Assembly: GCA_905221615.1 (NCBI GenBank) | Contig: CAJNDT010001247.1 | Coordinates: 336,827 to 400,826 of the forward strand | Origin: Symbiodinium sp. CCMP2592 | Lineage: Eukaryota > Sar > Dinophyceae > Suessiales > Symbiodiniaceae | Direction of reading: 5' to 3' | DNA: 64,000 nt | In this document: in pieces, positions 8,870 to 57,252 of the stretch | Position numbering within the stretch: the first letter of the stretch is position 1 | How the letters are laid out: every line of letters starts with the position of its first letter | Notes under the pieces: generated by a model | Told to the model about the DNA's origin: nothing | Seen by the model: only the letters and a program-made list of their open reading frames with translations | Databases searched by the model: none | Made by a program: the position numbers and the translations under genes

Positions 8870-8950
8870 AAGGTTAACCTCTGGGAATATATCGGGATTA
8901 TATAGGGATTAAGGTACCACATAAAAGTTGAAGGTTGCCTACTCAATTAC
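8870..8950. mobile_element. F20 element
   Basis: Contains GGAACTTAAGGTTAACC and ATATAGGGATTA. A related copy lies at 35282-35372. The inverted repeat is weaker than in other families. Confidence 0.5.
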
Positions 8951-9145
8951 TAGGAATAACAGGACCCTGACACTCATCACGAATCCCAAATAACCTAGCC
9001 CTCATGTGAAGGCTCAGCCGGTTTTTCAAATATTATGCTTAGCCGCCCTTGCTGCAACCATTTCATGACCCCAGTAGCAACCTCAAAATAAGGTAGGATA
9101 TTGATACTATAACGACCGTAATAACTTTTTGTTTATGGAGTTTCG

Positions 9146-14390: not shown

Positions 14391-14522
14391 CGAGGGTCGG
14401 GGGACTTAGTAAATAGTTAGTTTAGAGACGTATAATATGTATGCTGACCCCAATCAGAATCCCTTTTAAGGTATCTATAAGTCTACTTATTACCTACTTA
14501 CTAAGCCCCCGACCCTCCAAGT
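14390..14522. mobile_element. F2 MITE
   Basis: Complete but diverged F2 copy. Confidence 0.8.
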
Positions 14523-14683
14523 ATGGTTCAAAGTTTAGAGGCTTAGGCATCTGGGAGGTTCAGGGGTTTTCGGTTCTGGAGCATTCAGGGGTTTAGAGTT
14601 TTGGGGGCTTTTGGGGTTTAGGGTTTTGGGTTCCAGGCTTGTTTTTGCTTTTGCTGCTGTGGGCGTTGTTCTTGCAGTTGGGA

Positions 14684-14803
14684 ATGAGTGACACAGTAGT
14701 CGTCGCCGGCATCGTCGTCGCTGTAGCAGTCGTCGTCTTCGTCGTCAGGTCAGACCGGCTCCTGTTCGCCAAGTTCTATTTTAAGCTCTGTGACTTTCCG
14801 TGA
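14684..14803 (+). CDS. Small ORF with membrane helix
   Basis: A 39-codon ATG frame: MSDT, then a valine-rich helix (VVVAGIVVAVAVVVFVV), then RSDRLLFAKFYFKLCDFP. The helix is written by a GTC-rich, microsatellite-like run, so it may be chance. The last codons overlap repeat unit 1 of the 14.79-15.65 kb series. Confidence 0.25.
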   Translation: MSDTVVVAGIVVAVAVVVFVVRSDRLLFAKFYFKLCDFP

Positions 14804-14837
14804 CTGGACCTCTTGGAGATTCCGCACTCTCAGCAAT

Positions 14838-14953
14838 TCCCAAAGGGTCCTAAGTACCTATATGGTAGAATGTAGAATTTCTATATTAGGAAGTACTATG
14901 ATGATATGGGGAAGTATACCCCATAACAGCACCTAGGACCTAGGACCCTTTTG
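14838..14953. mobile_element. F4 MITE
   Basis: Family F4 has the TIR CCCAAAGGGTCCTAAGTACC and inner arms ATGGTAGAATGTAGGG. Complete copy. Confidence 0.8.
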
Positions 14954-15054
14954 GATTTCCAAACCTGGCAGCTTTGTGGCTTCGACGACTGGATCTCTTC
15001 GAGACTCCAGACTCTCAGCGGGCATTCATCCAACCAAGTGGGAGCTTCAGAAAA

Positions 15055-15155
15055 CAAGGGACCTTAATAAAGGTGCCTTAAACAGTGGGATCCATCTTTT
15101 CATATAAGGACTCCAAAATAAGTAAGGTACGCCTAATTTTCGGAAATTCCCAAGT
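15055..15155. mobile_element. F7 MITE
   Basis: Diverged F7 copy; the right arm CTAATTTTCGGAAATTCCC is clear, the left arm degraded. Confidence 0.6.
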
Positions 15156-15266
15156 ATGTTTTCCATACTCGCATGATTTAGCCACCTGACTCTGCAGGTC
15201 TGTGACGCTCGGTAGCTGGATCTCTCTGAGATTCCACAGACGCACTCAACCTGGCCTTGCCGCTTG

Positions 15267-15374
15267 CCCAAAGGGCTGTTATGGGGGATACTTCCTCAAA
15301 TCATAATAGTAATTCCTGACGTGGAAACCCCTGCATACTACCACATAGGTACTTAGGGCCCTTTGGGTTGGTGA
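15267..15374. mobile_element. F4 MITE
   Basis: Complete F4 copy. Confidence 0.8.
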
Positions 15375-15489
15375 CTTCGACGCCTGGATCTCTTCGGGAT
15401 TCCAGACTCTCGGCACTCAGCCAACCCGGCCAAGCATGTCTTCCATACTCCCAGGATATATTCATCCAGCTTTGCAGCTCTGCGGCATC

Positions 15490-15610
15490 TTAAAGGATCA
15501 TGGGACTTAGTAACTAAGGTTATAACTAAGGTAACTATACTTATAACTACTTATAACCCCAATTGAGGTACTTATAACCCTACGTACTAAGTCCCACGAT
15601 CCTCCAAGTT
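15490..15610. mobile_element. F3 MITE
   Basis: Complete F3 copy inserted in the middle of a repeat unit. Confidence 0.8.
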
Positions 15611-15704
15611 CCCATGACCGGATCTCTTTCAGATTCCACACGCTCAACGAGTCTTCACCCAACTTGGCAAACTACTGATTTTGAAGTCGTGGACACGCCC
15701 ACGC

Positions 15705-16263
15705 TTAAACATCTGGCTGCGCTCTGCCGGCTGTGTTGTCAGCTGCGGCAGCGTTACTGAGGTTGGTGGCTTCGAGTTTGTCGATGTGAGCGCACAAGAC
15801 CTCTACTGGTCCCGCTGGAAGGTTGTACGGTGATGCCAGCAGCTTCTGGCGTGTCAGGTGGATGAGCGCCGCCCCGGAAACCTCGTTGTCTGCAAGCACC
15901 TGGATTCTTGTGAAACTCTTCTCTTTATTTTCAGTGGGCATGACAAGAACTTGATTTTGTCTAGAAAGTCCGTCAGAATAGCCTAAGCCCAGGATGAAAA
16001 GCCCTTAAAATCCCAAACCATGAAGCACTGTGAAGGTCCTGTTAACACTCGTAGTATGCCAATCCTCAAGAAGAGCCCTAAACCCTATATCCTAAACCGT
16101 CTAGCGCTTTAAGGGTCACTCTAAAACACTTCGCTATACTGAACCTCAACAAGATCCGAGGTACTTTCAGGACTCTGCCCACACCGTGGCTGGTGTCGTT
16201 GGCCTCCCCCGGGATGCCGCCGGCTTTCAGCGCGGCAGCAACCCACTTGCTGGCATCTGCCAT
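15705..16263 (-). CDS. SAM-like domain gene fragment, two exons
   Basis: Minus strand. Exon 16263-16185 (ATG after CTTTCAGC) ends before GTGTGG in phase 1; exon 15889-15705 follows CTTGCAG in matching phase and ends at TAA. The join gives SKWVAAALKAGG..., DNEVSGAALIHLTRQKLL and SPYNLPAGPVEVLCAHIDKL. The order Trp and Leu helix, xNEVSGxxLxxLT turn, Gly-Pro then Leu-x3-Ile helix matches a sterile alpha motif (SAM), a protein or RNA interaction module. SAM domains are usually 60-70 residues, about the length here. Whether it joins exons at 16.44-17.65 kb is unknown: the phases do not fit directly. Confidence 0.6.
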
Positions 16264-16348
16264 GCTGAAAGCCTTTCTTGCTCCGGTTTTAGGTGACGGT
16301 CGGGTTCACATCAGTCTAGGGTGTAACAGTGTCAGGTTTAGGGTAAGG

Positions 16349-16356
16349 CATTAATA

Positions 16357-16397
<41 letters not shown>

Positions 16398-16401
16398 TAT
16401 G
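16349..16401. repeat. TA microsatellite
   Basis: Two runs of TA dinucleotides interrupted by GTA. Confidence 0.9.
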
Positions 16402-16440
16402 TTATGGTACACAAGGCAGTGACGGATGTTTGTTCTACTG

Positions 16441-16934
16441 CTAAGAGGCTGTAGCTTCTTCAAGGTTCTTGTCCAGCCAATTAATTTGCTCGGCTTTGCC
16501 ACTCGGCTGGATGGATACCTTAGTGGCTGGGTATCCTGGCCCAGAAAAGGTTAACCTGTTCAATTATGGTAGGACTATATAAACCACAAAAGGTTAAAGA
16601 TTATCTATTCAGCTACTAAGATACAGCTTCCACTTTCTCCACGTTGTCGAGGCTGCGCACTGCTGACACGGCCTTCCAAGGGTCCAGCACAAGAGATTTA
16701 AGTGTTGGATTGTCTACATCTATCTGTCAGGGTGCCTAACCCAAAGGGTCCTATGTACTGTTATGGGGGATACTTCCCTGGATCATAATAGTAATTCCTA
16801 ATATCGAAACCCTACATTCTACCATACAGGTACTTAGGACCCTTTGGGTAAACAAACCCTCCTGGAGAAGGACTCGGACTCGATATGAATCCTCCGTGCC
16901 CGCATGTTCGCAAAGATTGCGCACGGCTAAGCAC
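16441..16934 (-). CDS. Three-exon gene fragment with a MITE as its second intron
   Basis: Minus-strand exons 16934-16858 (after CTTCAG, first base G), 16719-16625 and 16518-16441 (ends TAG). Phases fit throughout. Pieces read CLAVRNLCEHAGTEDSYR, LVLDPWKAVSAVRSLDNVEK and KAEQINWLDKNLEEA. The first piece resembles an armadillo-type helix only weakly. Intron 1 (16857-16720, GT...AG) carries F4 element 16740-16851. Intron 2 is exactly an ATAC/GTAT target duplication plus F5 element 16519-16620. Confidence 0.55.
16519..16620. mobile_element. F5 MITE, probable introner
   Basis: Family F5 has the TIR CTTAGTGGCTGAGTA / CTCAGCTACTAAG. This 102-bp copy is flanked by ATAC on both sides (16515-16518 and 16621-16624). 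On minus the left duplication gives GT and the TIR end gives AG. Confidence 0.8.
16740..16851. mobile_element. F4 MITE inside an intron
   Basis: Complete F4 copy occupying most of a 138-nt intron of the minus-strand gene. Confidence 0.8.
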
Positions 16935-16969
16935 CTGAAGCCCGACGTCCTTTGGAATGCATACGGTCG

Positions 16970-17067
16970 ATGATATAAATCCTGCATTACTTTCTGGATC
17001 CTAAACTATGGGAATTATGGGGAATTCCTTATTATGGGTAATGCAGGATTTGTATCATCAACCGTAA
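16970..17067. mobile_element. F8 MITE
   Basis: Complete F8 copy flanked by TA on both sides. Confidence 0.8.
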
Positions 17068-17169
17068 GACCTAACTTCTGATACCTGAAGGCCAGTATGC
17101 TTAGACCGTCGACCCCGCGCCCAATTCAACAACGATCTTTACTAACGTTACTAACCCCTGAAACGCTTA

Positions 17170-17281
17170 CCCAAAGGGTCCTGTGCACTGTTATGGGGGG
17201 ATACATCCAAGGATCCTAATAGTAGTTCCTAATATAGAAACCCTACATTCTACCATACAGGTACATAGGACCCTTTGGGTC
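17170..17281. mobile_element. F4 MITE
   Basis: Complete F4 copy, close to that at 16740. Confidence 0.8.
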
Positions 17282-17315
17282 AGGTTAATGCAACAACAAA
17301 ACGGATAAGGAACAC

Positions 17316-17650
17316 CCAGAATCTTATTAGTTTTGATGGGTTCCAGGCCTTGCCCCGTTGCTTGAAAAAGCAGTAGACAGAGACCACGGGAATCAGAATA
17401 ATCAGCACCTTACTGGCCGAGTAGAGCGCTGGAAAATGGCTTTTAATGATCAAAGCAGAGTTTTAATGGGGTGTATAGTACTGTACTACAACATAACTAC
17501 ACTTAGCTGCCGAGCTCAGAAGCATGAACATTTCCAGTTTGCAGGAGGGGGAAGTAAGCTTAAAGGAACTTCCGAAGTCGCCGGCTAAGGCACAACAATC
17601 AGCACGATGATGACGATCCCCAGCGGCGAGGAAAAGAAGCTTCCATGAGC
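17316..17650 (-). CDS. Exon pair encoding a single membrane span
   Basis: Minus-strand exons 17650-17606 (15 codons, after GGTCTCAG, first base G) and 17408-17316 (31 codons, before GTGTTCC), phase 0. The join reads GSFFSSPLGIVII then VLIILIPVVSVYCFFKQRGK: a hydrophobic helix of about 20 residues followed by a basic patch, as in type I membrane proteins. The intron is a 9-bp duplication plus a 188-bp element. Most codons around the helix end in C or G. The protein family is unknown; an acidic exon at 18.6 kb may lie upstream. Confidence 0.55.
17409..17596. mobile_element. 188-bp element with 9-bp target duplication, probable introner
   Basis: Flanked by AATCAGCAC at 17400-17408 and 17597-17605. 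The ends CTTACTGGCCGAGT and AGTCGCCGGCTAAG are rough inverted repeats. On minus the duplication gives the GT donor and the element end GTAAG gives the AG acceptor. No second copy was noticed. Confidence 0.65.
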
Positions 17651-17699
17651 CTGAGACCAACAAAGTCTGAATTAGGGTTTGGGGTTTAGAAGGAGCAGG

Positions 17700-17800
17700 A
17701 CGAGGAGGAAGAGGTGTAGTACTAGTAGTAGTAGTGGTAGTAGTAGTAGTAGTAGTAGTAGCGGAGCAGTAGCAGTAGTAGCAGTAGTAGCAGTAGTAGC

Positions 17801-17867
<67 letters not shown>

Positions 17868-17934
17868 ATAGTAATAGTAGTAGCGGAGCAGTAGCAGTAG
17901 TGGCAGTAGTAGCAGAAGTAGCAGTAGTAGTAGC

Positions 17935-17989
<55 letters not shown>

Positions 17990-18039
17990 ATAGCAGCAGC
18001 AGTAGTAGTAGGAGTAGTAGTAGTAGTAGTAGTAGCAGC

Positions 18040-18136
<97 letters not shown>

Positions 18137-18140
18137 TGTA
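17700..18140. repeat. Long TAG/AGT microsatellite
   Basis: About 440 bases of nearly pure AGT triplets with AGC interruptions. Translations give poly-Val, poly-Tyr or poly-Thr artefacts. Confidence 0.95.
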
Positions 18141-18149
18141 GTTACTGTT

Positions 18150-18222
18150 GTCGTTGTTGCTGTTGTTGTTGCTGCTGCCATTTATCGTGGTTGTTAGTTG
18201 CCACTGTTGTAGGTATCCGTGC

Positions 18223-18256
<34 letters not shown>

Positions 18257-18269
18257 GCTGCTGCTACTT

Positions 18270-18305
<36 letters not shown>

Positions 18306-18560
18306 TTGGTGTTGCTGGTGTTGTCGTCGTAGTCGTCGCTGTACTCGTTGTTGTCGTTACTCTTGACTGTTGTAGGTGAAGCTGGTGTAGGTGATTTTGG
18401 TGTTGTTGCTGGTGTTGTTGCTGTTCTTGTTGTTGTTGTAGCTGTTGGCATTGTGTTGTTGTTGTTGTTGTTGCCGTTATCGTTGCGTTGCGGTTGTGGT
18501 TGTCGTTGTCACTGCGGCTGTGGTTGTGGATGTTGTTGTTGTTGGTGGTGGTGGTGGTGG
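18150..18560. repeat. TTG/TGC-rich microsatellite
   Basis: A second, less regular triplet tract (TTG with TGC and GGT) follows the AGT tract. On minus it reads as Thr/Asn/Gln-rich and is continuous with the exon at 18575-18744, so part may be translated. Confidence 0.85.
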
Positions 18561-18574
18561 TGGGGGTAGTGCCC

Positions 18575-18744
18575 CTGCTGCTGGTGTATTGTTTTTGTTG
18601 TTGGAGGTCTGTCTCAGGCCGAGCATCAGCACCAGGGCACATGGCGTTCATTGAGCTGGCGATGAGTGCCAGCCACTCGTCACTGCCGGTGTTGTCCAGC
18701 GTTTCCATTTCACCTGACAGGCACAAATCCCGAGACCCAGACGC
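18575..18744 (-). CDS. Exon, acidic region before a Thr/Gln-rich tract
   Basis: Minus strand, after TTTGTATGCAG with G as the first base. It reads EMETLDNTGSDEWLALIASS and MNAMCPGADARPETDLQQQK with strong C/G third positions, then runs into the triplet repeat as Thr/Asn/Gln. No family is recognised. It may belong to the same membrane protein as the helix exons at 17.3-17.65 kb, which is inference from order and strand. Confidence 0.55.
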
Positions 18745-18767
18745 CTGCATACAAAGAATCCTTGACT

Positions 18768-18865
18768 ATACTGAACTTAGAGCCCTGGCAAAAATTAAAA
18801 TTTTAGCTGTTTCTTAGGGAGTGTAATAACCAAAAATTAAAAAGTATTTCTAAGCACCCCTAAGT
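18768..18865. mobile_element. F17 element
   Basis: Shares ACTGAACTTAGA, TTTAGCTGTTTCTTAGGG and TATTTCTAAG with 22308-22408. Its ends are loosely inverted. Confidence 0.6.
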
Positions 18866-18884
18866 CGAGTAGAACGGGCTTGCT

Positions 18885-18985
18885 ATCTCATCTGTCTATA
18901 CTTCGGGGGAAGGGGTTTCCTGACGAACGTGAAACAAAACTTTCCATGGATGCGAGGGCTGTGCGACGAAGGATCATGGGGAGTA
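18885..18985 (-). CDS. Possible exon
   Basis: The minus strand is open in two frames (RRTALASMESFVSRSSGNPF and RIHGKFCFTFVRKPLPPKY). No boundary or domain decides between them. Confidence 0.25.
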
Positions 18986-19350
18986 GGATCAGGGACTTAG
19001 TAGGATAGCCCCATATCCATGCTCGCACACGATCACTACCAAAACCCGAAACCAGAAACCCCTAACCCCTAAACCTTAAACCCTACAACGATGCCACCTG
19101 TTAAGTTATCTGACACTCCACGGCCCTAAACCCGAAGCCCCTGAAGGTAATGTAGTGGCCCGAATTATTAGAATGTGGTTTTGGGGCCCACTATACTATA
19201 CTTATATTAAGGAACCCCCTGGAGGGTAGGAAACCCCACGAAAAAACCCTGAACCCCAAACCCTAAGAAACCCCAAGAAACCACTAAACCCCAAACCCTA
19301 AGAAACCCCATGAATACCCTAAACCCCGCAAACCCTAAGACACCCCAAAT

Positions 19351-19456
19351 GGGAGTTTCCGAAAATGGGGGACCCTAATATAGTAACCTAAATGGTAGGA
19401 TCCTTATTATAAGGACCCCATTATAAGGTACCCCTAATTTTCGGAAACTCCCATCT
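19351..19456. mobile_element. F7 MITE
   Basis: Complete F7 copy followed by CCTTTAAAGG repeats with an A10 run. Confidence 0.8.
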
Positions 19457-19556
19457 ATAGGGGTAATATAAGGGTTCCTCTAAAGGGATCTATAGGGGTT
19501 CTATATGGGTTCATTAAAAAAAAAAGGGGATCTATAGGGGAACCCTAAGAAACCCC

Positions 19557-19665
19557 AAATGAAAAGCCGGAGATCCGAATGTAGTCCCCAGCCACGTTGT
19601 CCGGCCAGAGCCCACGTCGTCAGACCACGCCACTGCTGCAAGGGTTTCCCCAGAGCCATACCACC
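19557..19665 (-). CDS. Possible exon, GC-rich island
   Basis: One minus frame after CCCTTGCAG reads VAWSDDVGSGRTTWLGTTFG with good third positions; another minus frame and one plus frame are also open. Probably former coding sequence; the frame is not settled. Confidence 0.3.
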
Positions 19666-19834
19666 TTTTTTAGGGTTTAGGGATTTTTGGTTTAGGGGTT
19701 CAGGGATTTTTGGCTAAGGGTTTAGAGGTTTAGGGCTTAGGGTTTAGGGTTTAGGGATTTTTGGCTTAGGGGTTGAGGGGTTTTGGTTTAGGGTTTAAGG
19801 GTTTAAGGTTCCAGACCCTGAACCCTGAACTCAG

Positions 19835-19940
19835 ACCCTGGGAGGATGAATCTGGAAAGTAAAACCCCTAATTGGGAACCTAGAACACGACAGTGTACCT
19901 TATAGAAACCCCCTTAGGGGATCAGCAGCGGTCTGGGCTA
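19835..19940. mobile_element. F1 MITE, diverged
   Basis: Degraded F1 copy; arms recognisable at AGACCCTGGGAGGAT and GGTCTGGG. Confidence 0.5.
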
Positions 19941-20141
19941 CTGCTAAGGGAACCCAAACCCCCATAGCCCACACATAAAGAATTAGCTACTCGGACATGG
20001 GTGATCGGGAAATCATACATGATCTGGATATCGTTCTAAAGAAGTTTGAGTTTCTTAGATCCCCATGGAGCCGTTGTCAAACAAAGGAAAACCGAGTGAA
20101 GAACCAAGGTTACCTATTCCTTCTCATCAATCCGGCCACAC

Positions 20142-20218
20142 TGGCTCATGCTCCGACGGCCAGTCGTAGTACCAGCCACCATGATCTGGCAGCCGGCCCA
20201 CATAAAAGCATTCAGTGC
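20142..20218 (-). CDS. Exon, unknown protein rich in aromatic residues
   Basis: 77-nt minus exon after CTTTCTGTCAG (first base G) and before GTGTGG. It reads TECFYVGRLPDHGGWYYDWP then SEHEP, with most codons ending in G or C. It starts in phase 1 and ends in phase 0. No domain is recognised. A second frame upstream has a Cys-rich APCPSCPFCQ. Confidence 0.5.
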
Positions 20219-20325
20219 CTGACAGAAAGGACAAGAAGGACAAGGGGCAGGGCCGTAGTACCACTCCGCAGTTTTTCTGGACATCGTGAAAGGCAAACTA
20301 AGCTACATACCTGTGCCTAACCTTT

Positions 20326-20475
20326 ACTTGGAGGTTCGTGCTTCTTACAGCCTGATTATATGATCGGACTTGTAACCCAATCATACCATAGGTAATAGAG
20401 CTATAGGACTTGCAGCTGGATTACACTTACAAAAGATATTGATTGCCTTAATACACCGAACCTCCAAGTAAGGGA
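20326..20475. mobile_element. Palindromic element, single copy
   Basis: TIR CTTACTTGGAGGTTCG at both ends in inverted orientation, flanking an unrelated loop with TGATTATATGATCGG. Confidence 0.65.
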
Positions 20476-20698
20476 CCTCTGAAAAGAGGCAGCCCGGTTC
20501 CTTACCATGCTGGTTGATTGGGACATCTACTCATACTACGGCATGGTGGGGGTCTCTACAACTACATGATGGCCTGAGGGTTTCAGGTTCAGGGTTTCGG
20601 GTTGAAGGGCTCCTATCAGCGGTCCTAAACAGTTCAACTGGGCTTCATGAAGATCCAACCCTAAAGTGTCAGGGTCCGAAAGAAACTATGGGATACTG

Positions 20699-20797
20699 TT
20701 GATGATACAAATCTTGCATTATCTTAAGGACCCAAAACCATGGGAATTATGGTATGTTCGTTATTATGGGTAATGCAGGATTCATATCATCAACCGT
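20699..20797. mobile_element. F8 MITE
   Basis: Complete copy, TA on both sides, directly followed by an F1 half copy. Confidence 0.8.
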
Positions 20798-20947
20798 ATT
20801 ATGGGTTCTACTTTCCAGATCCTCCCGGGGGTCTGGGATGCTGGCCCCCTAAACCCTCAACCCTAAACCTGGCCTGTGGGAGTTGGAAGTCTGTCTGGCC
20901 CTTGAGCGAAGCCAGCAAAAGACCTGGGTTTTCAGGGTTCAGACGGC

Positions 20948-21084
20948 TTACTTGGAGGGTCGGGGGACTTAGTAAGTGGACTATAAATAGACTTATATGT
21001 ACCCTAAGAGGGACCCTATTTGGGGTTATGGTACTTATAAGTCCTCAAAATAAGTACTTACTAAGTCCCCCGACCCTCCAAGTA
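20948..21084. mobile_element. F2 MITE
   Basis: Complete F2 copy. Confidence 0.85.
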
Positions 21085-21139
21085 GGGTTTAGGGGGCTTC
21101 CCTGAGACTCCATGATCCTTTAGGGTTTAGGGTTTAGGG

Positions 21140-21238
21140 TTTAGGCTTTAATTAAGGAATGCCCCTTAAATCATCTTAAGGAAACCTACTATAAGTTACG
21201 GTCTATTCCTTAAGTAAGGGATATTGGAGTCTCTGGGT
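21140..21238. mobile_element. F15 MITE
   Basis: Family F15 has the TIR CCAGAGACTCCAATATCCC and inner arms CTTAATTAAGGAATA. Left end partly replaced by TTTAGGG repeats. Confidence 0.6.
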
Positions 21239-21303
21239 TCAGGGCTTGCGGGGTCGGGTTCTTAGGGCTTCTGGAGTCTAGGAGCCATAGGAGGGGTGTT
21301 TTA

Positions 21304-21415
21304 TATACAGGGAACTCCAGAAAGTTGGAATATGGTTTCATGGTAGGATACCCTATAATTTACCATAGAAGGGTTAGGATAATCATATTCCAACTTTCTG
21401 GCTTTTACCTTAGGT
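21304..21415. mobile_element. F9 MITE
   Basis: Complete F9 copy, minus orientation. Confidence 0.8.
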
Positions 21416-22126
21416 TTTTGTATGATGCTATCCGGATGCTTGTTAGAGTTGTAGAAGTGCCTCAACGAGGCATAGGGAATACCATTGAATTCCAAACACC
21501 ATAGCCATAGTAAGGCATCAGGCAGTGTAAACTGATGCTCAAGCAAAGTAGTTGTGGGAGATCGGCAGAAAAAGTTGTAGAACCACAAATGTTTAGGGGC
21601 CTGAAAACGATGCTGAAGCCTGCCAAACAAATCATATACCCTAAACCGTACTCCCTAAACCCTAAACCCTAACTAAACCTTGAATTCTCATCTCCAAGTA
21701 GGGGTGCAAATGCTCAAGCATGAGGGCGTTAGGAACCAAAAGCACTCAGAGGACAGCTTTTGAGTCCCAAACTCCTTACTAGTTGGACCCTCGAACTCTT
21801 ACTGTACCAAAAGCTGTTTAACACTAGGCTGCTGCGTAGCCCCGTCGTAATAAGGGCTCGCTTTTCCTACCATTCGGTTTTAATAAGGGGAACCTAAAAA
21901 AAGGGTGCAAAACTGAGGAACATAGAAGACTGGGTTGGCCTTTAAACACCCTGAAAACTACTTATATATATATATATATAGGGTCCCGTATAAACCCAAA
22001 TATAAGGAAAATAAAAAATGACCCAAAATCCAACCTAGAGGAGCTAAGAGACGAGCCGTCCTCGACTTGCTTCGAGGCCTCCACTGGCGTCGTGCAGCCC
22101 ATTGGGCTGACCCAGCCATACGTCAC

Positions 22127-22231
22127 CTGGGTAGTTATCAAAATTATGGTCCCTTTTTGGGGTACCCTAAATATTAGGTGCCGTAGAAAATTAAGGACCC
22201 CAAAAGGGACCCTAATTTTGACAACCACCCA
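22127..22231. mobile_element. F6 MITE
   Basis: Complete F6 palindrome. Confidence 0.8.
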
Positions 22232-22307
22232 CCTCGCTCAGTACACCATAGGCCTCGGTGGCTTACAAGTGTTCATGGGGTTTGGGGTTTAGGGTGTGGG
22301 GTTTACT

Positions 22308-22408
22308 ACACTGAACTTAGAACCCTAGCAAACATTATAGTTTTAGCTGTTTCTTAGGGATTACACAAACAAAAAAATAAAAACTATTTCTAAGTACCCC
22401 TAAAATTA
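22308..22408. mobile_element. F17 element
   Basis: Second copy of F17 (see 18768). Confidence 0.6.
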
Positions 22409-22449
22409 GGGGCTGTCTAAGGCTACTACAAGGGGCTCAGTGCACCATC

Positions 22450-22559
22450 CCAAAGGGTCCTATGTACTGTTATGGGGGGCTACTTCCCTGGATCATAATA
22501 GTAATTCCTAATATCGAAACCCTACATTCTACCATACAGGTACTTAGGACCCTTTGGGC
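22450..22559. mobile_element. F4 MITE
   Basis: Nearly identical to the F4 copy at 16740. Confidence 0.8.
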
Positions 22560-22887
22560 ATAAGCCCTGGTGCTCTATTCTACAAGGGGGCTCAGAAGGT
22601 TTTTTGCAAGGAATACCAAACGTTGTTACAGTCAGGGTCTACATAACGAACTGTAAAAGTTCGATAAGGGTTTTATAGCTCTGTTCCTTAAGAATGTGTC
22701 AAAAAGTCTTATGGTTTTTGACGGGATTTAGCAGGCTCGGGATATTCATTTCCGGATTGTATCTGTGACTCTTATCCCAATTACAGGTCTCCTACTGTAC
22801 CTTAGTTACCTAGATGATGATTCGGTTGCAAGTGCAATTATAATTGGGCGCGGCGATGAATACCCCCAACAGGGAGGCCTGGAGTAA

Positions 22888-23524
22888 TTATGGGCCCATG
22901 TCTAGGGCATCCTAGAGAGCAAGGCAGGAAAAAAGCAAGAAACATGAGCAGTTTACCAGCATACAGGTGAAATCGGCTTCGATACGAGAAACTCACAAGC
23001 TGCAGACTACGATGCACGAACTTCATCTACCCCAACAGACTCCCGCCAACACTTGGCGCTTAGGGTTTAGGTGGTTACGTTGCGGTTCGAGTTTCACGGT
23101 TCAGGGACAGCCACTTTGCTGGTTCTGTACAGGTTGTACAGAGTGCATCATCTTGACAGTGACAGCCGCAGAAAACTAAGCTCCTCACATACGGCCCGAA
23201 GACAATCAAGTGCAGGCCATTGTTTTCCAGATCATTCTTCAGCAGGTCAGCTGCATGCGCAAGAGAGCAAGCTCCCGCCCAGTAGCTGCACTCGACACCC
23301 GGATGCCCAATGAGTATGTGAGAGTTCGCTGGAAGTCCGCTCGAAATCGCTGCTTCCATGTCCGCTGTCGTCTCCCACACCGTCATGCTGCTTGCGACGA
23401 CTTTCTCAAGCTTCCTCTGTATCTTGAGACTACCTTGGCCAAGCCCAATGAAATATACTGGGCAGGCGGCCTGCGCAGTGGCCGCAATGGCAGCAGAAAG
23501 CAAAAGCCATAAAGCGGTCGTCAT
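22888..23524 (-). CDS. Secreted protein, unknown family
   Basis: Minus strand, ATG at 23524. Exon 1 opens with a signal peptide (MTTALWLLLSAAIAATAQA), then ACPVYFIGLGQGSLKIQRK, an acidic-helical middle and HPGVECSYWAGACSLAHAAD. It is the longest non-repeat ATG frame here (149 codons to 23075). A good donor (TAT before GTGAGG, 23188) and a strong pyrimidine tract with AG before 22911 allow a terminal exon of eight codons in phase, giving a protein of about 119 residues. Third positions are G/C rich. No domain is recognised. Confidence 0.65.
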
Positions 23525-23559
23525 GAGTTCTACACGGATTGAGCCACTTCCGATGTCTG

Positions 23560-23860
23560 CGCCGAAATAGTATTGGTACTTATTTAGGCCCCTGTATTAG
23601 TCCTGCAGTTTACGGTTTAGGGCTTGGCGAAAACAAAACTCAGGAAGCCAACATCCTAAACTGGGCCCCCAAACCCGCCTGCGCGAAGCGGCATCCGGTC
23701 CCAGGCACGCACCATGCCGGCCCGGAATTGCGGGTTGACTGCTCGGAGCGTTTTTGTCAGTGTTACCCCCGGTGAGGAACTACACAGTTCAAGGGACAAC
23801 ATTACAAATGGCACGTGCATCTCTTCAAGTCTGCGGCAAAGTCGTACCGAAGTCTAACCC
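23560..23860 (+). CDS. Possible exon, two frames open
   Basis: Two plus frames overlap: one ends CSERFCQCYPR before GTGAGG, the other runs from ATG 23714 to TAA 23857 (RNCGLTARSVFVSVTPGEEL). Both look coding; neither has a recognised domain. Confidence 0.3.
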
Positions 23861-24189
23861 TCTAAATCCTATACAACCAGAACCCTCAACTGAGCTATGC
23901 CCTAGGGTTTAAGAGCTTAAGATGCTCTAGGCAAGACAGCTGCCGACGAAGATGCAGGCTAACCCTAAACCCTAAACTCTAAACACCCTAAACCCTAAAC
24001 CCTTTCTGGACCTGACGAGCTGAGCCCTGCATGTTTGGGGCTTAAGGCCAAGATCTTGCAAAAAGCCTGTCTTTGTTCAGGACTGTGCCTTAAAATACAT
24101 TAGGGATCCTACTACAGCTTAATTTAATGTATCTTTGTTGCTGAGTTCATACGCCCCAAAAATGTAAATTTTCAACTTTAAACTGGGTA

Positions 24190-24234
24190 ATAGAATCCCA
24201 AAGAGTGCAAAGTGTATCCACTCAGCTACTAAGA
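24190..24234. mobile_element. F5 MITE, right part
   Basis: Only the CTCAGCTACTAAG end of F5 is present. Confidence 0.6.
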
Positions 24235-24283
24235 TCTAATGTATACTTCTGAATTACGGAATATGGTTAGGGTTTGCGGGCAC

Positions 24284-25062
24284 GGTTCTCGAATCGGGGA
24301 TCACGGCACTGACTGAAGGGGTGGAAAGACAGTCCCTGGCGGATGCCCACGAACCCGACTCTGTGAAGGTTACGTGATAGAAGATGGAACAGCCGCCATC
24401 CGCAAGATCGATTGTTTCGATGTTGAGTTCTTCCTAATCGCAGAGTTGAGGTTTGGGGCTTGCAGCTCTTCACAGTATTGCTTGCGAGCTGCCCTTATAT
24501 GCTGTAGCCTGAACCGACAAGTCCATGTGAGAGCACCTGCAAAGTTCTGGTGGACCTGTATGAAGCGGTGCTTTCACACTTGAGGCTTCTGATTCTGCGT
24601 AGGGCTGTGCCGAAGATACCCCAAATCCGAAGTAACAAATAGCACCACTCCCCCACACACACTCAATTACGTCAGTCGACAATAATTCTGGGGTCAAAAA
24701 GAGGCACCAAAAGCGGAAAGGGCCACCCTCAGAAACCGAAAAACTCCCAATGAGAAGGTTGAAACCTCACAGTAACTACAAGGCGATGAAGTATCCCCGA
24801 GGGTCACAGTACCTAATAATCATATACTCTCCAAAATCCCAACCTACATAACTACTATCCTAAAGCCAAGTACCTAATCATTGGGTCCTTTGGACCCTTG
24901 GGGTATGATTACCTTCATGCCTTCACCTGTACGCTGCAAAGACTCGTAGCATCCCCAGATCGCTAGGAGGATCCAAATGCCGACGGAGGGAAAGGGTTTC
25001 GATGCCAGGAATCGCTTGTAGATATCATCTTCCGATGTTACGGAGTAGTTTGTCGACGGTTC
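24284..25062 (-). CDS. Three-exon gene fragment with membrane helix
   Basis: Minus exons 25062-24913 (50 codons, after CTAG, first base G, before GTAATC), 24727-24482 (82 codons, after TTTCTGAG, first base G, before a GC donor) and 24433-24284 (50 codons, after GATTAG, first base G, before GTGCCC). All phases are 0. Exon 1 has a membrane-like FPSVGIWILLAIWGCY; exon 2 has VWGSGAICYFGFGVSSAQPY and Cys-rich PPELCRCSH; exon 3 has DLADGGCSIFYHVTFTESGS. The first intron holds F16 at 24788-24906. The family is unknown; the GC donor is the weak point. Confidence 0.55.
24788..24906. mobile_element. F16 MITE in an intron
   Basis: Complete F16 copy, starting just after the GTAATC donor of the minus gene. 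Confidence 0.75.
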
Positions 25063-25176
25063 CTAGTTCGTCTTGTGCAGTTATCACAAGGTCTTTGCGG
25101 TTTGCAGAAGGCCCTTAGCCCTAAACCCTTAGCTCTAAGCCCTCAACCCTGACCTACAACCCTAAACCCTAAACTG

Positions 25177-25239
25177 CTAAGGCTCGCGCTGGTTCCAACT
25201 CAAGTCTAAATCGACCAAAGCCTGATCCAGTTGGGCCCA
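25177..25239 (-). CDS. Possible exon beginning at an F3 end
   Basis: The minus frame WAQLDQALVDLDLSWNQREP begins immediately after the F3 end ...CCTCCAAG, whose AG would be the acceptor. It ends at TAG or before a GA donor. Confidence 0.35.
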   Translation of the reverse strand, partial: WAQLDQALVDLDLSWNQREP

Positions 25240-25575
25240 CTTGGAGGATCATGGGACTTAGTTAGGTTCCTATAAGGGCTCCTTAAAGGGATCTATATGG
25301 CTCCTTAAAGGGATCTGTAGGGGTTCCTTAAAGGGATCTTTAGGGTTTAGGGTTTGGGGTCTACTTGGAGGATCATGGGACTTAGTAACTTCAAGGGTTC
25401 CTTAAGGGGTTCCTTAAGGGGCTCTATAAGGGATCTATAGGGGTTTAGGGTCTACTTACGGATCAAGGGACCTAGTAAGTAAGGTTATAAGCACCTTAAT
25501 TGGGATTCTAAGTAAGTATAAGTATAGTTACCTAGTTTATAACCGTAGCTATTAAGTCCCCTGATCCTCCAAGCA
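25238..25575. mobile_element. F3 elements with CCTTTAAAGG repeats
   Basis: Two F3 left arms (25238, 25370) and one right arm (ending near 25575) are separated by repeated CCTTAAAGGGATCTATA. Confidence 0.65.
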
Positions 25576-25849
25576 GGTTTATGGCTCGAAGATTACAGGG
25601 TTCATGGTTGATTTGCTGCACTTTTCTGCACCCCAACACTTGCACTACTAAAGGGCACCTTATAAGAAGCCGCTCAAGGAATCTCTTGAATTTCGGATCC
25701 TACCAGCGATCTGGGTTCAGGCACTTCTGCTACACGATTTTATGCTGGGTCCAGAGTTCGGCATTCAGGGTGCCCACGGTTTAGGGGCTACAACAATATC
25801 GTGGCCTTGATCATGAAACTAGGGCTTGGGGGCTACAATATAGCAAAAT

Positions 25850-25982
25850 TCAAGCAAAGAACCCTGAGGACAACACTAATCCAAAGTTGATCTTGCTCAG
25901 CCTTTGAAGCGGTGTCCAAGGTAGGATGTGGGCCAGAAAGTCCATAGGCATGGAAAGCTCCATCACGTGTTCATCTACATAC
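25850..25982 (-). CDS. Possible exon, F-box-like helix
   Basis: Minus frame of 43 codons after TTTTAGCAG (first base G): YVDEHVMELSMPMDFLAHIL then PWTPLQRLSKINFG, ending TGA. The spacing of Leu and Ile faintly recalls an F-box, but it is too short to be sure. Confidence 0.4.
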
Positions 25983-26013
25983 CTGCTAAAACTTGGGGGC
26001 TGAATTAACGATT

Positions 26014-26126
26014 ACTACTATTTGCTTAAGAACCCCCAAAAAATAAAAAATATATTCCTTATGGGGGTAATATAGGGATTATTATTTTTATTTTTGGGGG
26101 GGTTCTGAAGCAAATAGTAGATTAAG
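26014..26126. mobile_element. F12 MITE
   Basis: Complete F12 copy. Confidence 0.8.
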
Positions 26127-26162
26127 AGAGGCTGAGACGGAGCCTTGTGCTGCAAACATACT

Positions 26163-26303
26163 CTAGATCCAACGGAAAACTGTAAGAGGATGAGAAATGC
26201 GACTATTCAACCATGAAGGACAGCTGGTTATGTTCTGCACCCTGCGCCTCGAAACTGCCCGCACAAAACGGAAAGCAAATTCACGAACAGACTCCCCTAT
26301 TCC
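26163..26303 (-). CDS. Possible exon
   Basis: Minus frame of 46 codons after GGTTTAG (first base G): SVREFAFRFVRAVSRRRVQN and onward to TAG. Its acceptor lies in CCCTAAAC text, which weakens it. Confidence 0.3.
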   Translation of the reverse strand, partial: GIGESVREFAFRFVRAVSRRRVQNITSCPSWLNSRISHPLTVFRWI

Positions 26304-26518
26304 CTAAACCCCAAAGGGTTCAACCCCTGCACCCCCGAAGCCCTAAGAGCCTGTATCCCACTTTAGGAGATACGTGGAAGGTCAGTAAGTAGTTATCAAC
26401 TAAAGACTTATAACTATCATAATGCCGGTTAGGATCCCCTTCAGGGTAATTTTAAGTCTACCTATCACCTACTTACTAAGTTTTCAGGACCCTCCAGGTA
26501 GGGATTGGGGTCTACAGT

Positions 26519-26617
26519 AGAAGCCAGAAAGTTGGAATATGATTATCCTAAACCCTTTATGGTAGATTATAGGGTATCCTACCCTGAAACCATATTCCAA
26601 CTTTCTGGAGTTCCCTT
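26519..26617. mobile_element. F9 MITE
   Basis: Complete F9 copy. Confidence 0.8.
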
Positions 26618-26803
26618 TAGAGGGGTTTACGGACTCGAGGCTTCAAGTCCTCGAACCGGTAAAAAAAACAAAAAAATCCTTCCGCGGAATTAGGGTTTAG
26701 GGCTTTAGGGGGTGCGGGTTAAGGGTTTAGGGTTTAAGGGTTTAGGTTTACGCAAACCTACAAGGCACTAGCAAGGAACTAGATACAACCCTTTTCACCC
26801 TAC

Positions 26804-26980
26804 ATGGCGGATCGCGAACTCGCATCTTTCCCGAAAGTCCCGATAATCTACCCAAACTTTGTGGAGTATCCAGAACATACAACCCTAAACAAATGGCCTA
26901 TCTCACGCTGTACAACAGTAGGAGGTTATCACTTGGATCATCTTAGATCCTTCACGGGGTCCAGGTATCTAGGAGGTTGA
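26804..26980 (+). CDS. ORF or antisense exon, strand uncertain
   Basis: On plus, ATG opens 58 codons (MADRELASFPKVPIIYPNF). On minus, 26884-26804 is an 81-nt frame after TTTGTTTAG (first base G) and before GTAGGG, reading FWILHKVWVDYRDFRERCEF. Either could be real. Confidence 0.35.
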   Translation: MADRELASFPKVPIIYPNFVEYPEHTTLNKWPISRCTTVGGYHLDHLRSFTGSRYLGG

Positions 26981-27540
26981 TGTAAGGCGTTCATAATTAG
27001 AACAAGTGCTTCGTAAGAATTGTTGTTGCTGGGTATGGTTTTACCATGGACAAGGTGAGTCTGAACAGGTATGGGATAGGGGTCTTCATAAATGGAACAG
27101 GGTTCTGGGAGCTATTGTACTGCATTGCTTTCTATCAACTTTATGATACGGTAAATTGTATGTTATGCTTTGTTGTATGATATTTCATTGTTATCTTTTT
27201 CATACTGTTTAATTCTAAAGGTACTGTAAGGGAACACAAGTTGGATCTCTATCACTGCCTCTGTGTATTTATTCAATCCTCTCTCTGTTACTGTCACTCT
27301 CTCTGAGTTTAGGCCCACATGGCCTGAAGCACAGCAAACGATGGTAAATTCAAGTGGCAGCTAAGGCTCAATCACTAAATCCTCAACCCGTTGAGTCTAC
27401 ACCCCCTAAACCCAGGCGTTCACTGACCCACTGTTGGGAGAAGTGCATACTTGCGGGGGTTAGTGCTGTAATATTAGAAAAGGGTATACCACTGAACAAC
27501 CCAATGTAGGATCCTAATCTAGGCTGTTCAGTAACCCAGT

Positions 27541-27617
27541 GGATATATATATATATATTTATTTATTTATTTATTTTATACATACATCTTTTTTTCGGGG
27601 GGGGGGGGGGGGGGGCT
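27541..27617. repeat. TA/TTTA microsatellite and G run
   Basis: ATATATAT, then TTTA repeats, then an uninterrupted run of about 20 guanines. Confidence 0.9.
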
Positions 27618-27732
27618 AAATCTATCGTAACCACAGGAGCCCAGAAATAAAAACAAACCAGTATATCGTTGCACAACCTGGCATAATGTCCTTATCTTTA
27701 TACCATCTCCCAGGGGCTGACAATGTCTTCCT

Positions 27733-27870
27733 TCACCCCCTTAAACTCTTAAACCCGAGTATCCCTAATGATCTTCTGATCCAAGGTGCTGGAAAGCCAA
27801 CGACTGCATTGACCTTCTGGATCAAGTTGTGTGCCACATCCTGGGAGAAAATTCCACTTCGGCCCACAAG
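27733..27870 (-). CDS. Possible exon adjoining an F3 end
   Basis: Minus frame of 45 codons beginning after the F3 end ...CTCTAAGTAG: VGRSGIFSQDVAHNLIQKVN then AVVGFPAPWIRRSLG, to TGA. The middle codons end mostly in G or C. A plus ATG frame of 77 codons (27686) overlaps it. Confidence 0.45.
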   Translation of the reverse strand, partial: LVGRSGIFSQDVAHNLIQKVNAVVGFPAPWIRRSLGILGFKSLRG

Positions 27871-27994
27871 CTACTTAGAGGATCATGGGACTGAGGATGT
27901 AAGGCAACAAGTACCTTAATTGGGGCTTTAAGTAATTATATGTACAGTTACCTAAATCATAACCCTAGCTACTAAGTCCCAAGACCCTTTAAGT
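27870..27994. mobile_element. F3 MITE
   Basis: Complete F3 copy; its left end forms the acceptor side of the neighbouring minus exon. Confidence 0.75.
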
Positions 27995-28275
27995 AATGTA
28001 GTACAGTAGGGGGCCTTGCCAATTGGAACACAGCTCTGGTGTATAATTTAGTTATTATACTTGGACTGGGGCACTCAAGGGAATATGATGTCTTGTTAGT
28101 AGGGCCCAAAGAAGCATATAAACAAAAATACGGTCCCACATAAACCCCCTTTTAACGAAGCCCAATAATGTAGGCAGGCTTCTACCCCTTCGGACCCAGG
28201 CGTTCAACTGCAACTGGTAGGATCCTAAGGACCGAAACCATCCAGAGTAGAATCGTTGGAGCCTAAAATTCTATC

Positions 28276-28334
28276 TTAGTGGCTGAGTATCCTAGCCCAA
28301 AAAGGGTTAAGCTCTTAAACTATTGTCGGACGAT
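28276..28334. mobile_element. F5 MITE, left half
   Basis: The first 57 bases of F5, cut off in the loop; coding sequence of the polymerase fragment starts directly beside it. Confidence 0.65.
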
Positions 28335-28735
28335 GTCCTCCTCCCTAGCGGGTTCAGCCCCTCCACCGCTGCCTCTGCGTCTTGGACGATCTCGATGAGA
28401 TCAGGATCCCAGCACACCATGTTGAGGTCTCCATCGAAATCTCCACCGGCCATGCCGCTGTTGGCAAAGCCTTCCGCCCAAACTATGACGGCATTGTTGG
28501 GCACTAGGCCGTGGTCCGATGGCCACCCGCTGTCCAAACTTCCACATCCCCTGGCATTTGGCATGGCGCCCTCCAAACCACCACGCGTCTGCTTCCAGTG
28601 TATGCATTGCCATCTACAGTCACATTACATTCCTTGTCGCCCAATGGTCGCAAGTAATTACTACAGACTTCCAGTAAATCTAAGGGTCCAAGCATCAAAT
28701 ATTCGTGTTTAACCAGGTGTGCAGGGTTTGGGGCT
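28335..28735 (-). pseudogene. RNA-dependent RNA polymerase (silencing type) catalytic fragment
   Basis: Minus strand. One frame (28735 to about 28520) reads GNAYTGSRRVVVWRAPCQMP then GDVEVW, like the RNPCLHPGD-type strand of cellular RNA-directed RNA polymerases. The next frame continues DHGLVPNNAVIVWAEGF and MAGGDFDGDLNMVCWDPDLI, containing the catalytic DxDGD motif with all three aspartates. Family members make double-stranded RNA for small-RNA silencing and are about 1000 residues or more, so only the core is present. The frames join if one base is added in a GGG run near 28524, implying a frameshift or sequencing error. Left edge abuts a half F5 element. Confidence 0.7.
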
Positions 28736-28904
28736 TCTGATTTACTAGGTAGGTTGTTCGGAGCTTGTTGCTTCGTTTCCCTTCTCTGTTGCGTAGTTCA
28801 AAGTCTGTGGATCAAGGTCTTGATGCTCTAGGTCCCCACGTTTTAGGGTTTAGGGTGGGTTTAGGGTGTAATATATAATAACTATAGTAGTGACGGTTAT
28901 CTTT

Positions 28905-29162
28905 CTATTTACCCTTACAACTCCCACCTAAATCCGAAACCCTGACCTCGAAACCCAACCCTCCAGGGCAATACCATGCTACATCGATGATCAGGGTACC
29001 TTGGGGTTTAGGATTTCTGCTTACACCAAATACGTAAGGCTTCGGGTTTAGGACTTCGAGGTTAGAGTGCAGGTGATAGGGCGTAGGACTTGCAGGCCTC
29101 TCCGGGATGCTTATACAGTAACTCCAGGCCAAGGTATATACTAGATGGATACGTCGACCCAC
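28905..29162 (-). CDS. Possible exon
   Basis: The first part of this minus frame (IHLVYTLAWSYCISIPERPA) could be an exon; the rest reads through CCCTAAA-like text and is not credible. Confidence 0.2.
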   Translation of the reverse strand: MGRRIHLVYTLAWSYCISIPERPASPTPYHLHSNLEVLNPKPYVFGVSRNPKPQGTLIIDVAWYCPGGLGFEVRVSDLGGSCKGK

Positions 29163-29203
29163 TATCGCATTTCAAGGCCCACGTACAGCCCCAACCCTCC
29201 TAA

Positions 29204-29345
29204 TGTAGGAGCCTGAGCAAGAAACCCTGGGTCCTTACTAGGGTTCCTGATATGAATCCTAATACACTCGGGGTTTATCCTAAGATATGGGGGGTTATAG
29301 GGCCCTAAACCCTAAACCCCTAAACCCTAATCCCAATCAGGTTCC
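29204..29345. mobile_element. F13 MITE
   Basis: Family F13 has the TIR GTAGGAACCTGATTAAGAAA. This copy's loop contains CCCTAAA repeats. On minus its right TIR begins with a GT that could serve as a donor for a frame at 29350-29412 (LTSLDQNSAVWIQPKLRF). Confidence 0.7.
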
Positions 29346-29499
29346 TACATAAATCGAAGTTTAGGCTGGATCCACACAGCTGAGTTCTGGTCTAGCGAGG
29401 TCAGCGTCTCGCCTCAGCCACTCACTTGGAGGGTCGGGGAGTTAGTACCCGTAACGGGATCTATAGGGGTTCTATAACGGGCTCCTTTAAAGGGATCTA

Positions 29500-29881
29500 T
29501 AAGGGTTCTATAAGGAGGGTCGGGGGAGTTAGTAGGTAGGTTATAAGTAGGCTTATAAGTGCCTTAGAAGGAACCCTATTTGGGGTTATGGTACTTATAA
29601 GTCTCTAAAATAACTACTTACTACAGTAGAAGCCAGAAAGCTGGAATATCATTATCGTAACCCCTTTAAAGTAAATTATATGGGACCCTACCATTAATCC
29701 ATATTCCAACTTTCTGGAGTTCCCTTTAAGTCCAACTAGACCTAAGAGTAACCTAGCAATGAAAAGGGTGCCCTTTTTGGTTTAAAGGGTGTTATAAGGG
29801 AACCTAACCCCCAAAAAAGGCAATAAGGGCCTACTCTGGGTCCCAGTTAACTACTTACTAAGTCCCCCCATCCTCCAAGTA
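29500..29881. mobile_element. F2 MITE containing F9 and F11
   Basis: The F2 arms at 29500-29621 and 29851-29881 enclose an F9 copy (29623-29728) and an F11 copy (29737-29850). The sequence TAACTACTTACTA occurs at both junctions. Confidence 0.75.
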
Positions 29882-30109
29882 GGGCTCTTATATTAGGACT
29901 GTAGGGTTCCTTTAAAGGGATCTATAAGGGGTGTGGGAAAATAACTACTTACAAAGTCCCCCCCCGATCCTCCACTCAGGCTATCAGACCCAGGTGTTCG
30001 GGCTTTAGCTGGTTCAAGGTTCTCTAGGTTTAGGGTTTAGGGTTTAGGGTTTTGGGTTTAACCCCAAAACAGTCGTTAAAGGGATCCATAAGGGTTCCTT
30101 TAAAGGGGT

Positions 30110-30150
30110 CTATAAGGGATCTATGAAGGTTTTTTTTTTTTTTTTTAAGG
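30110..30150. repeat. T16 run in a CCTTTAAAGG repeat
   Basis: A homopolymer of thymines interrupts a CCTTTAAAGG-type repeat. Confidence 0.8.
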
Positions 30151-30556
30151 GCCCTTTTCCGTCTGCAGTTGCTTCCGAAATCTATAGAGGGTTTAGGGTT
30201 CAGGGTTTAGGCTAATGTAGGAACCTGATCAAGAAATCTTGGGCCTTTTCTAGGGTTCCTTATATGAACCCTACTATTTTAAAGCTTTGGGGTTATAGGC
30301 CCAAGGTTTCAGGGTTCAAGCTACGGGGATACGTAGTTGCTTCATTTTTCACCGAGTTACTTCCCTAAGGTCCGATGCTGTAGCTCCTTTTTGGGATGCC
30401 CTTATAGGCTTCTAAATGTGAGCCACAAAAGGAACTACTATGCCGCCATGGGGTAACTGGTATGAACCTTTCATGTACGGCTAAGGGTTATCCAGATCAA
30501 GAACCTCAGGACTGACAAAGGCACGCCGAGGGGATGCAGGGCCGGGCTGTACACTG

Positions 30557-30684
30557 CTTGGAGGATCAGGGGACTTAGTAACTAGGGCTATAACTACCCT
30601 AAATGGGGCTATAAGTAATTAGAATTAGAAGTCTAGTAACCCTGAGTATAAGCCGAGCAACTAAGTCCCATGATCCTCTAAGTG
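30557..30684. mobile_element. F3 MITE
   Basis: Complete F3 copy. Confidence 0.75.
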
Positions 30685-30802
30685 GTGTTTGCGCGGTGAA
30701 TAGTCCTTACCCCTTCGAGGGTCTAAATATGTCTAAATCCTACACTGCCACTTTGAGTTTTGCATTGTGTCCAAAGCGTCCGTACCCTGCTGCCCTTGAC
30801 CC

Positions 30803-31022: not shown

Positions 31023-31026
31023 AGCC

Positions 31027-31128
31027 TTTGCTTAAGAACCCCCAAAAAATAAAAAATGATAATCCCTATATTATCCCTATAAGGAATACATTTTTTATTT
31101 TTTTGGTGGGTTCTTAAGCAAATAGTAG
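31027..31128. mobile_element. F12 MITE
   Basis: Complete F12 copy that replaces the last bases of the F10 element before it. Confidence 0.8.
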
Positions 31129-31853: not shown

Positions 31854-31856
31854 TAC

Positions 31857-34655: not shown

Positions 34656-34873
34656 GGTTTTGCTACTACACGCTACTAAGGTGGTGAGGGGTTTACAGCG
34701 GGTACCTAGGCTTTTGTGCAGTTAAGCGGTTTCAAGGCTCCCTCCGAAGGTGTACTTGGACCCTTCGTGGATACTACTAAAGGCTAATGTATAGGAAGGC
34801 AGTAAATTTGCGTCCGAAGGTCCTTCACGCAGGCATCCCTATGACAATCATTTAATATCAGAGGGCTGTCTCT

Positions 34874-34972
34874 TAGCGGCTGAATACCCTAGCCCAGAAA
34901 AGGGTAACATTCTCAATTATGGTAGGGTTATAGAAACCCCAAAACGTTAAAGGATACCTACTCAGCTAGGAA
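34874..34972. mobile_element. F5 MITE
   Basis: Complete F5 copy. Confidence 0.75.
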
Positions 34973-35029
34973 GGTTTATCAAGGGTATGAAGTGGCAAGG
35001 GTGGTCCGGCCCTAAACCCTAAACCCTAA

Positions 35030-41340: not shown

Positions 41341-41378
41341 TGGAAAAGATTATGCATCAATCGCCAAACATCCTTGCT

Positions 41379-41483
41379 TAAGGGCTGAGTACCCTAGCCC
41401 TGAAAATACTCACCTTTTCTGTGATGGTTGGATTATACCATGGGATCACCAAAAGGTGAAAGGTTACCTACTCAGCTACTAAG
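41379..41483. mobile_element. F5 MITE
   Basis: Complete F5 copy. Confidence 0.75.
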
Positions 41484-43712: not shown

Positions 43713-43823
43713 GGCTTGCGCAAGGGGCCCCAAGAAAACGTCCTACAGATTGACGCTGACAGCAGAAGTTGCTGCCCTGGGCCTAATTTGAGGCCAAAGT
43801 ATGCTACTTTACTTCGAGGCTGG

Positions 43824-43912
43824 AAATGCTACTCCCCAAAAGGTTAACCCTTTCAACTATGGTCAGATTATATGAGCCCCAAACGGTTAAAGGTTACCTA
43901 CTCAGCTGCTAC
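43824..43912. mobile_element. F5 MITE
   Basis: Nearly complete F5 copy; left TIR degraded. Confidence 0.7.
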
Positions 43913-44168
43913 GTTTAAGGCCAAAGTATATACTATTTGGGTACATGGGCCTTTCGGGTGAAGGCAATAAGCGATACTGATGGCAGCCTAAACTGCATGA
44001 AAAACATGTTGTAAGTCGTTTGCTCTGAAGTTGCACCTTAATCCAGTATCGTTTGGTTGAGAGATAAACGTATGGGAGCATGCCATAAAGCATCTCATGT
44101 GCTTAAAAGTTGAACCTTAATCCAATGTCGTCGGGCTCGCGCTTCAAACGTATGGGAGCATGCCTTAA

Positions 44169-55297: not shown

Positions 55298-55338
<41 letters not shown>

Positions 55339-57051: not shown

Positions 57052-57252
57052 CAAAGATCCTAAGTACCTACGGACCAGAAAGTAGGGTTTCCATAACATA
57101 GTTGCCGAGTTCATTAGCCCAAAAAAGTTTAAACTTTCAGTCTTAAGAGGGTTTCATTATCCCAAAAAAGTTTAAAGTTTATAAACTCAGCTACTAAGAT
57201 AATTATAGGAGCTACCATGGCATGGTTTGAGCAAGTCTCCCTGTTATAGGTA
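57052..57252. mobile_element. F4 MITE containing an F5 copy
   Basis: F4 arms (AGATCCTAAGTACC; AGGTACTTAAGACCATTTGG) enclose an F5-like copy at 57110-57200. Confidence 0.65.

Follow-up and report, generated by a model that had tools for sequence, protein, structure and literature searches.

A MITE-like F5 element with a 4-bp target site duplication as a probable introner-like intron

In the 64-kb stretch of DNA analyzed here (the window), one copy of a short repeat family, F5, at 16519-16620 is probably an introner-like intron derived from an insertion, judging from its sequence anatomy. According to the proposed explanation, a non-autonomous F5 DNA transposon (MITE) would have landed in a coding exon towards the 3′ end of a gene on the minus strand, duplicating 4 bp of its target (GTAT). 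The inserted element would be spliced out of the transcript as an intron, with the GT supplied by the target site duplication (TSD) and the AG by the terminal repeat of the element. We infer that the gene is transcribed, that splicing takes place at both of these sites and that the element is a derived gain, not an ancestral feature. The splicing claim is drawn from the anatomy of the locus, since no relative of the encoded protein tail was found and the reading frame by itself allows 21 GT-AG pairs.

Structure of the F5 element and its insertion site

The locus comprises the following features:

16519..16620, minus strand: F5 element, MITE-like, 102 bp, minus-strand ends CTTAGTAGCTG ... CAGCCACTAAG
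16621..16624, minus strand: TSD copy GTAT, predicted 5′ splice site (GT), with the predicted intron starting at 16624
16515..16518, minus strand: second TSD copy GTAT, where the downstream exon is predicted to begin (GTA TCC = Val Ser)
16519..16624, minus strand: predicted phase-0 intron, GTAT plus element, 106 nt, GT-AG
16625..16723, minus strand: upstream coding-like stretch IDVDNPTLKSLVLDPWKAVSAVRSLDNVEKVEA, with a possible CAG acceptor before it at 16726-16724
16441..16518, minus strand: downstream coding-like stretch VSIQPSGKAEQINWLDKNLEEATAS plus TAG stop

On the minus strand, the sequence runs from ...GAAGCT, ending at 16625, through GTAT (16624-16621) and the element (16620-16519, ending CCACTAAG) to GTATCC, starting at 16518. 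The element has near-perfect terminal inverted repeats (TIRs) and is bordered on either side by an exact ATAC (GTAT on minus); its coordinates, ATAC flanks and ends all agree with those given in the first-pass annotation. That annotation had also proposed an exact in-frame restoration of the empty site, with the GT lying in the TSD and the AG at the terminal repeat, and this was borne out: removal of 16624-16519 gives ...KVEAVSIQPSGK..., which continues in frame to the TAG at 16443-16441. Hairpin stability of the element was left out as evidence because 26 of 200 shuffled sequences fold equally well (z-score -1.17).

The open join was rejected as sole evidence and is weak when taken alone, since 122 of 509 arbitrary GT-N102-AG sites give an equally long open frame. 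Excision also leaves a second minus-strand frame open over 88 codons, and the composition of this frame is unfavourable. The usual 5′ splice-site consensus is GTRAGT, to which the predicted site, GTATCT, is a weak match. Nor does the frame fix the splice sites uniquely, as 21 GT-AG pairs near the element keep it open; only the pair 16624/16519 removes the element exactly with all flanking codons kept. This multiplicity would suit a scenario in which F5 hit or replaced an older spliceosomal intron, or in which neighbouring splice sites are used and the element forms only part of the intron. Such a history is nevertheless highly improbable: the ends of the predicted intron and of the element agree to the base on both sides and the TSD is intact, whereas, had F5 landed in an older intron, stretches of that intron should remain beyond the TSD.

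Coding-like character of the flanks

The flanks of the element have coding-like character. Once joined, they form 58 codons that are coding-like on both sides and are interrupted by neither a stop nor a frameshift. An amino-acid log-odds test was applied, with general protein frequencies, a background taken from the window and low-complexity windows dropped before the composition ranking was counted; the test was chosen after a cruder score, and the cut-offs are our own. The score of the joined 58-residue tail was equalled or beaten by 16 of 6,435 stop-free 58-residue windows. All 16 form a single cluster at an exon matching RNA-dependent RNA polymerase (RdRP; 28534, minus), the next-ranked cluster scoring below the tail. 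Taken separately, each part lies within the top 0.7%, with the upstream score reached by 122 of 20,048 windows and the downstream score by 158 of 25,254. The cruder score, which was based on position composition and trained with three local stretches, placed the tail, which carried one extra base in that calculation, within the top 4% (299/7,367 windows).

Simulated removals single out the same site. When each of the six full-length F5 copies was excised, only the 16519 copy had protein-like sequence on both sides in a single frame, which the two sides share only when the removal is exact. Among 516 removals of a 106-nt GT...AG stretch, no other site matches its score on both sides. It is also the sole one to reach 0.12 on each side among the 677 GT...AG stretches that are 60-300 nt long and framed by a 4-bp direct repeat. 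When any 106 nt may be removed, 20 of 126,800 positions do equally well on both sides: six correspond to the 16519 site itself or to versions shifted by one to five bases, and 14 begin within a trinucleotide-repeat tract, at 18266-18286.

No homologue of the 58-residue tail was identified in Pfam, NCBIfam, PDB sequences or a protein database, and the case for a gene at 16441-16723 therefore rests on composition. A search of viral contigs with the tail peptide pattern returned 18 stretches that fit the pattern, none of which was confirmed as a relative. These negative protein searches and the ease with which arbitrary sites produce an open join (122/509) would be expected if the flanks were noncoding and the in-frame join were fortuitous, amid MITEs in intergenic or intronic sequence. 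We regard such a coincidence as very unlikely, given the protein-like composition on both sides and the presence, next on the same strand, of another coding-like region that can be drawn as a short two-exon model. This region, at 15708-16263, consists of two stretches (MADASKWVAAALKAGGIPGEANDTSHG / VLADNEVSGAALIHL...) separated by a drawable GT-AG intron, and had no Pfam match.

A different reading accepts the gene but takes the element to disrupt it, leaving an unspliced MITE within an exon of what would be a pseudogene or null allele. The element does bring stops in all three frames, the other five full-length F5 copies do not sit between coding-like stretches, and the 16519 copy, with 86% identity to the consensus of those five (~14% divergence), need not be a young insertion. 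Against disruption, the 58 joined codons have kept their coding-like character free of stops and frameshifts, and neither the TSD copies nor the terminal AG have decayed despite the distance of this copy from the consensus. We consider disruption unlikely, and an insertion-derived intron remains our preferred interpretation.

The F5 family in the window

A profile built from the six full-length copies of F5 in the window, which measure 101-107 bp, also picked up a half copy of 61 bp and two weaker relatives. Besides the copy at 16519, the family members are:

24133..24233, minus strand: F5 copy, flanks GTAT/ATCT, without a clear TSD, not between coding-like stretches
34872..34973, minus strand: F5 copy, flanks GTCT/GTTT (one mismatch), not between coding-like stretches
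41377..41483, minus strand: F5 copy, flanks CTTG/CTTC (one mismatch), not between coding-like stretches
43812..43913, minus strand: F5 copy, TSD TTTA/TTTA
57097..57198, minus strand: F5 copy, TSD ATAA/ATAA, not between coding-like stretches
28275..28335, minus strand: half F5 copy, at the end of an open frame with an RdRP match
35292-35373 and 8870-8952: weaker, longer F5 relatives

The consensus termini form an inverted repeat at 14 of 15 terminal bases. Three of the six full-length copies have perfect TSDs (ATAC, TTTA, ATAA), two have one mismatch and one (24133) is unclear. Across the six, 20 of 24 positions of the 4-bp flanks match, a level that 200,000 random draws of six sites never reached. 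The signal is confined to the four flanking columns, which match in 5, 6, 4 and 5 of the six copies; in each of the other 22 columns examined, 0-4 of 6 copies match. With TIRs, a 4-bp TSD, multiple copies and a length of 101-107 bp, too short for a transposase, F5 has the characteristics of a MITE. The first-pass annotation had described F5 as ending in CTAAG on both strands; the family ends are indeed near-symmetric (CTAAG/CTTAG), but some copies deviate from them at one end, as 57097 begins with CATAG and 43812 ends with CTACG.

The two weak relatives both end in CTAGGA on the plus strand (set by eye) and share an internal motif like GTAACCTTTAACC, which suggests an F5 sister subfamily. The seven clear F5 copies and the two weak relatives all point the same way, sense to the minus-strand coding-like stretches. 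Of ten other repeat queries, nine have matches on both strands (one of these 6 to 1) and the tenth is a single match; the comparison is limited by the ambiguous strand of near-palindromic repeat families.

After excision, none of the other five full-length copies sits between coding-like stretches (0/5). At the 43812 copy, a 108-codon open frame spans the excised site, and its composition is not protein-like. The introner interpretation of the first-pass annotation is partly supported. At the 16519 locus, a transposon-like element, a 4-bp TSD, the placement of GT and AG, the empty-site join and coding-like flanks coincide; the support does not extend to intron-making by F5 elsewhere in the window. 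With five of six full-length copies lying outside coding-like surroundings, F5 looks like a general MITE of which one copy turned into an intron, rather than a dedicated introner, as judged on one 64-kb window, which is too small to settle the question. A fuller version of this idea would make F5 a general-purpose MITE found largely outside coding DNA, whose near-symmetric CTTAG...CTAAG ends could serve as a 3′ splice site whichever way round the element lands, and an insertion at an exonic GTNN might create an intron instantly. Intron gain would then be an incidental by-product of an ordinary MITE and not the work of a gene-targeting introner. This broader proposal we hold to be unlikely.

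Genomic context of the window

The window looks eukaryotic on account of its RdRP match, its inverted-repeat families and 63 matches to TTTAGGGTTTAGGG. The minus-strand RdRP match corresponds to Pfam PF05183, with QDE-1 as the best PDB sequence match. The open frame concerned, at 28275-28624 on the minus strand, contains the GGDFDGD motif and runs into the half F5 copy near its end. The 63 TTTAGGGTTTAGGG matches are exact, occur on both strands as interstitial telomere-like repeats and are accompanied by many degenerate copies; shuffled sequences contained none.

Nine of the ten other repeat queries have at least seven matches, and several repeat families have inverted-repeat ends. Since four of the nine queries (D15, D16, D18, D19) overlap and should be treated as a single family, the window holds about seven repeat families including F5. 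One other inverted-repeat family (ACCCAAAGGGTCC...GGACCCTTTGGGT), with 11 matches in the window, occurs at 16738-16849 and 17169-17280, just upstream of the coding-like stretch. Long trinucleotide-repeat tracts at 17720-18600 and 55166-55350 generate long artificial open frames.

A Pfam search of ten other open reading frames (ORFs) and three minus-strand frames (14401-23900, 24001-33600) returned, beyond RdRP, only matches below the curated cut-off; the one with the lowest E-value falls in a simple-repeat tract. No homologue was found for two other ORFs of the window. The F5 pattern had no match in viral contigs, the pattern of another repeat family had none in viral or genome contigs, and 15800-17700 matched no plasmid. 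Rfam and tRNA scans of the window were likewise negative, and the dinoflagellate spliced-leader relic motif had 0 matches in the window.

Comparison with known MITEs and introners

Generic MITEs are short, multicopy elements with TIRs and a TSD. F5 shares all four features with them, and five of its six full-length copies do not lie between coding-like stretches; the 16519 copy differs from generic MITEs in being a predicted intron. If splicing were confirmed, the locus would be a clean single-locus case of one MITE copy becoming an intron, with five full-length sisters not between coding-like stretches. It would have a bearing on the question of whether introners form a specialised class of element or arise as by-products of MITEs that end in AG.

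Introners have been reported in several dinoflagellates (PMC7789003, PMC11453091, PMC10666404, as excerpted). Both these dinoflagellate introners, as related via PMC11453091, and the predicted F5 intron involve transposable elements that make introns. TTTAGGG telomere repeats have been reported for dinoflagellates, a motif that is also frequent in the window. For one chlorarachniophyte, the excerpted text of PMC12730881 describes lineage-specific introns that its authors do not ascribe to introners.

In the excerpted account of Amoebophrya (Farhat et al. 2021, PMC7789003), introner elements have inverted repeats at the intron ends, as in the F5 copy, and direct repeats of 3-5 nt over the exon/intron boundaries, like its 4-bp repeat. 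The Amoebophrya elements were defined among non-canonical introns, whereas the predicted F5 intron is of the GT-AG type; canonical introns of similar organisation make up 1% and 15% in two Amoebophrya strains (PMC7789003).

The closest counterpart is found in Symbiodinium microadriaticum, whose introners are described in excerpts of Gozashti et al. 2022 (PMC9860276) as having a 4-bp TSD, TIRs, an element-borne 3′ splice site and a 5′ splice site derived from the TSD. The predicted layout of the 16519 copy is the same, as compared by description rather than by sequence. The example given for that species spans positions 86725-86839, about 115 bp, compared with 106 nt for the predicted F5 intron. 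The mechanism is therefore not new: such recruitment of splice sites is already in print for S. microadriaticum (PMC9860276). The survey in that paper, as excerpted, starts from annotated introns that resemble one another, whereas in F5 one of six full-length copies is a predicted intron. The 16519 copy may thus plausibly be added as a further case of the known introner layout.
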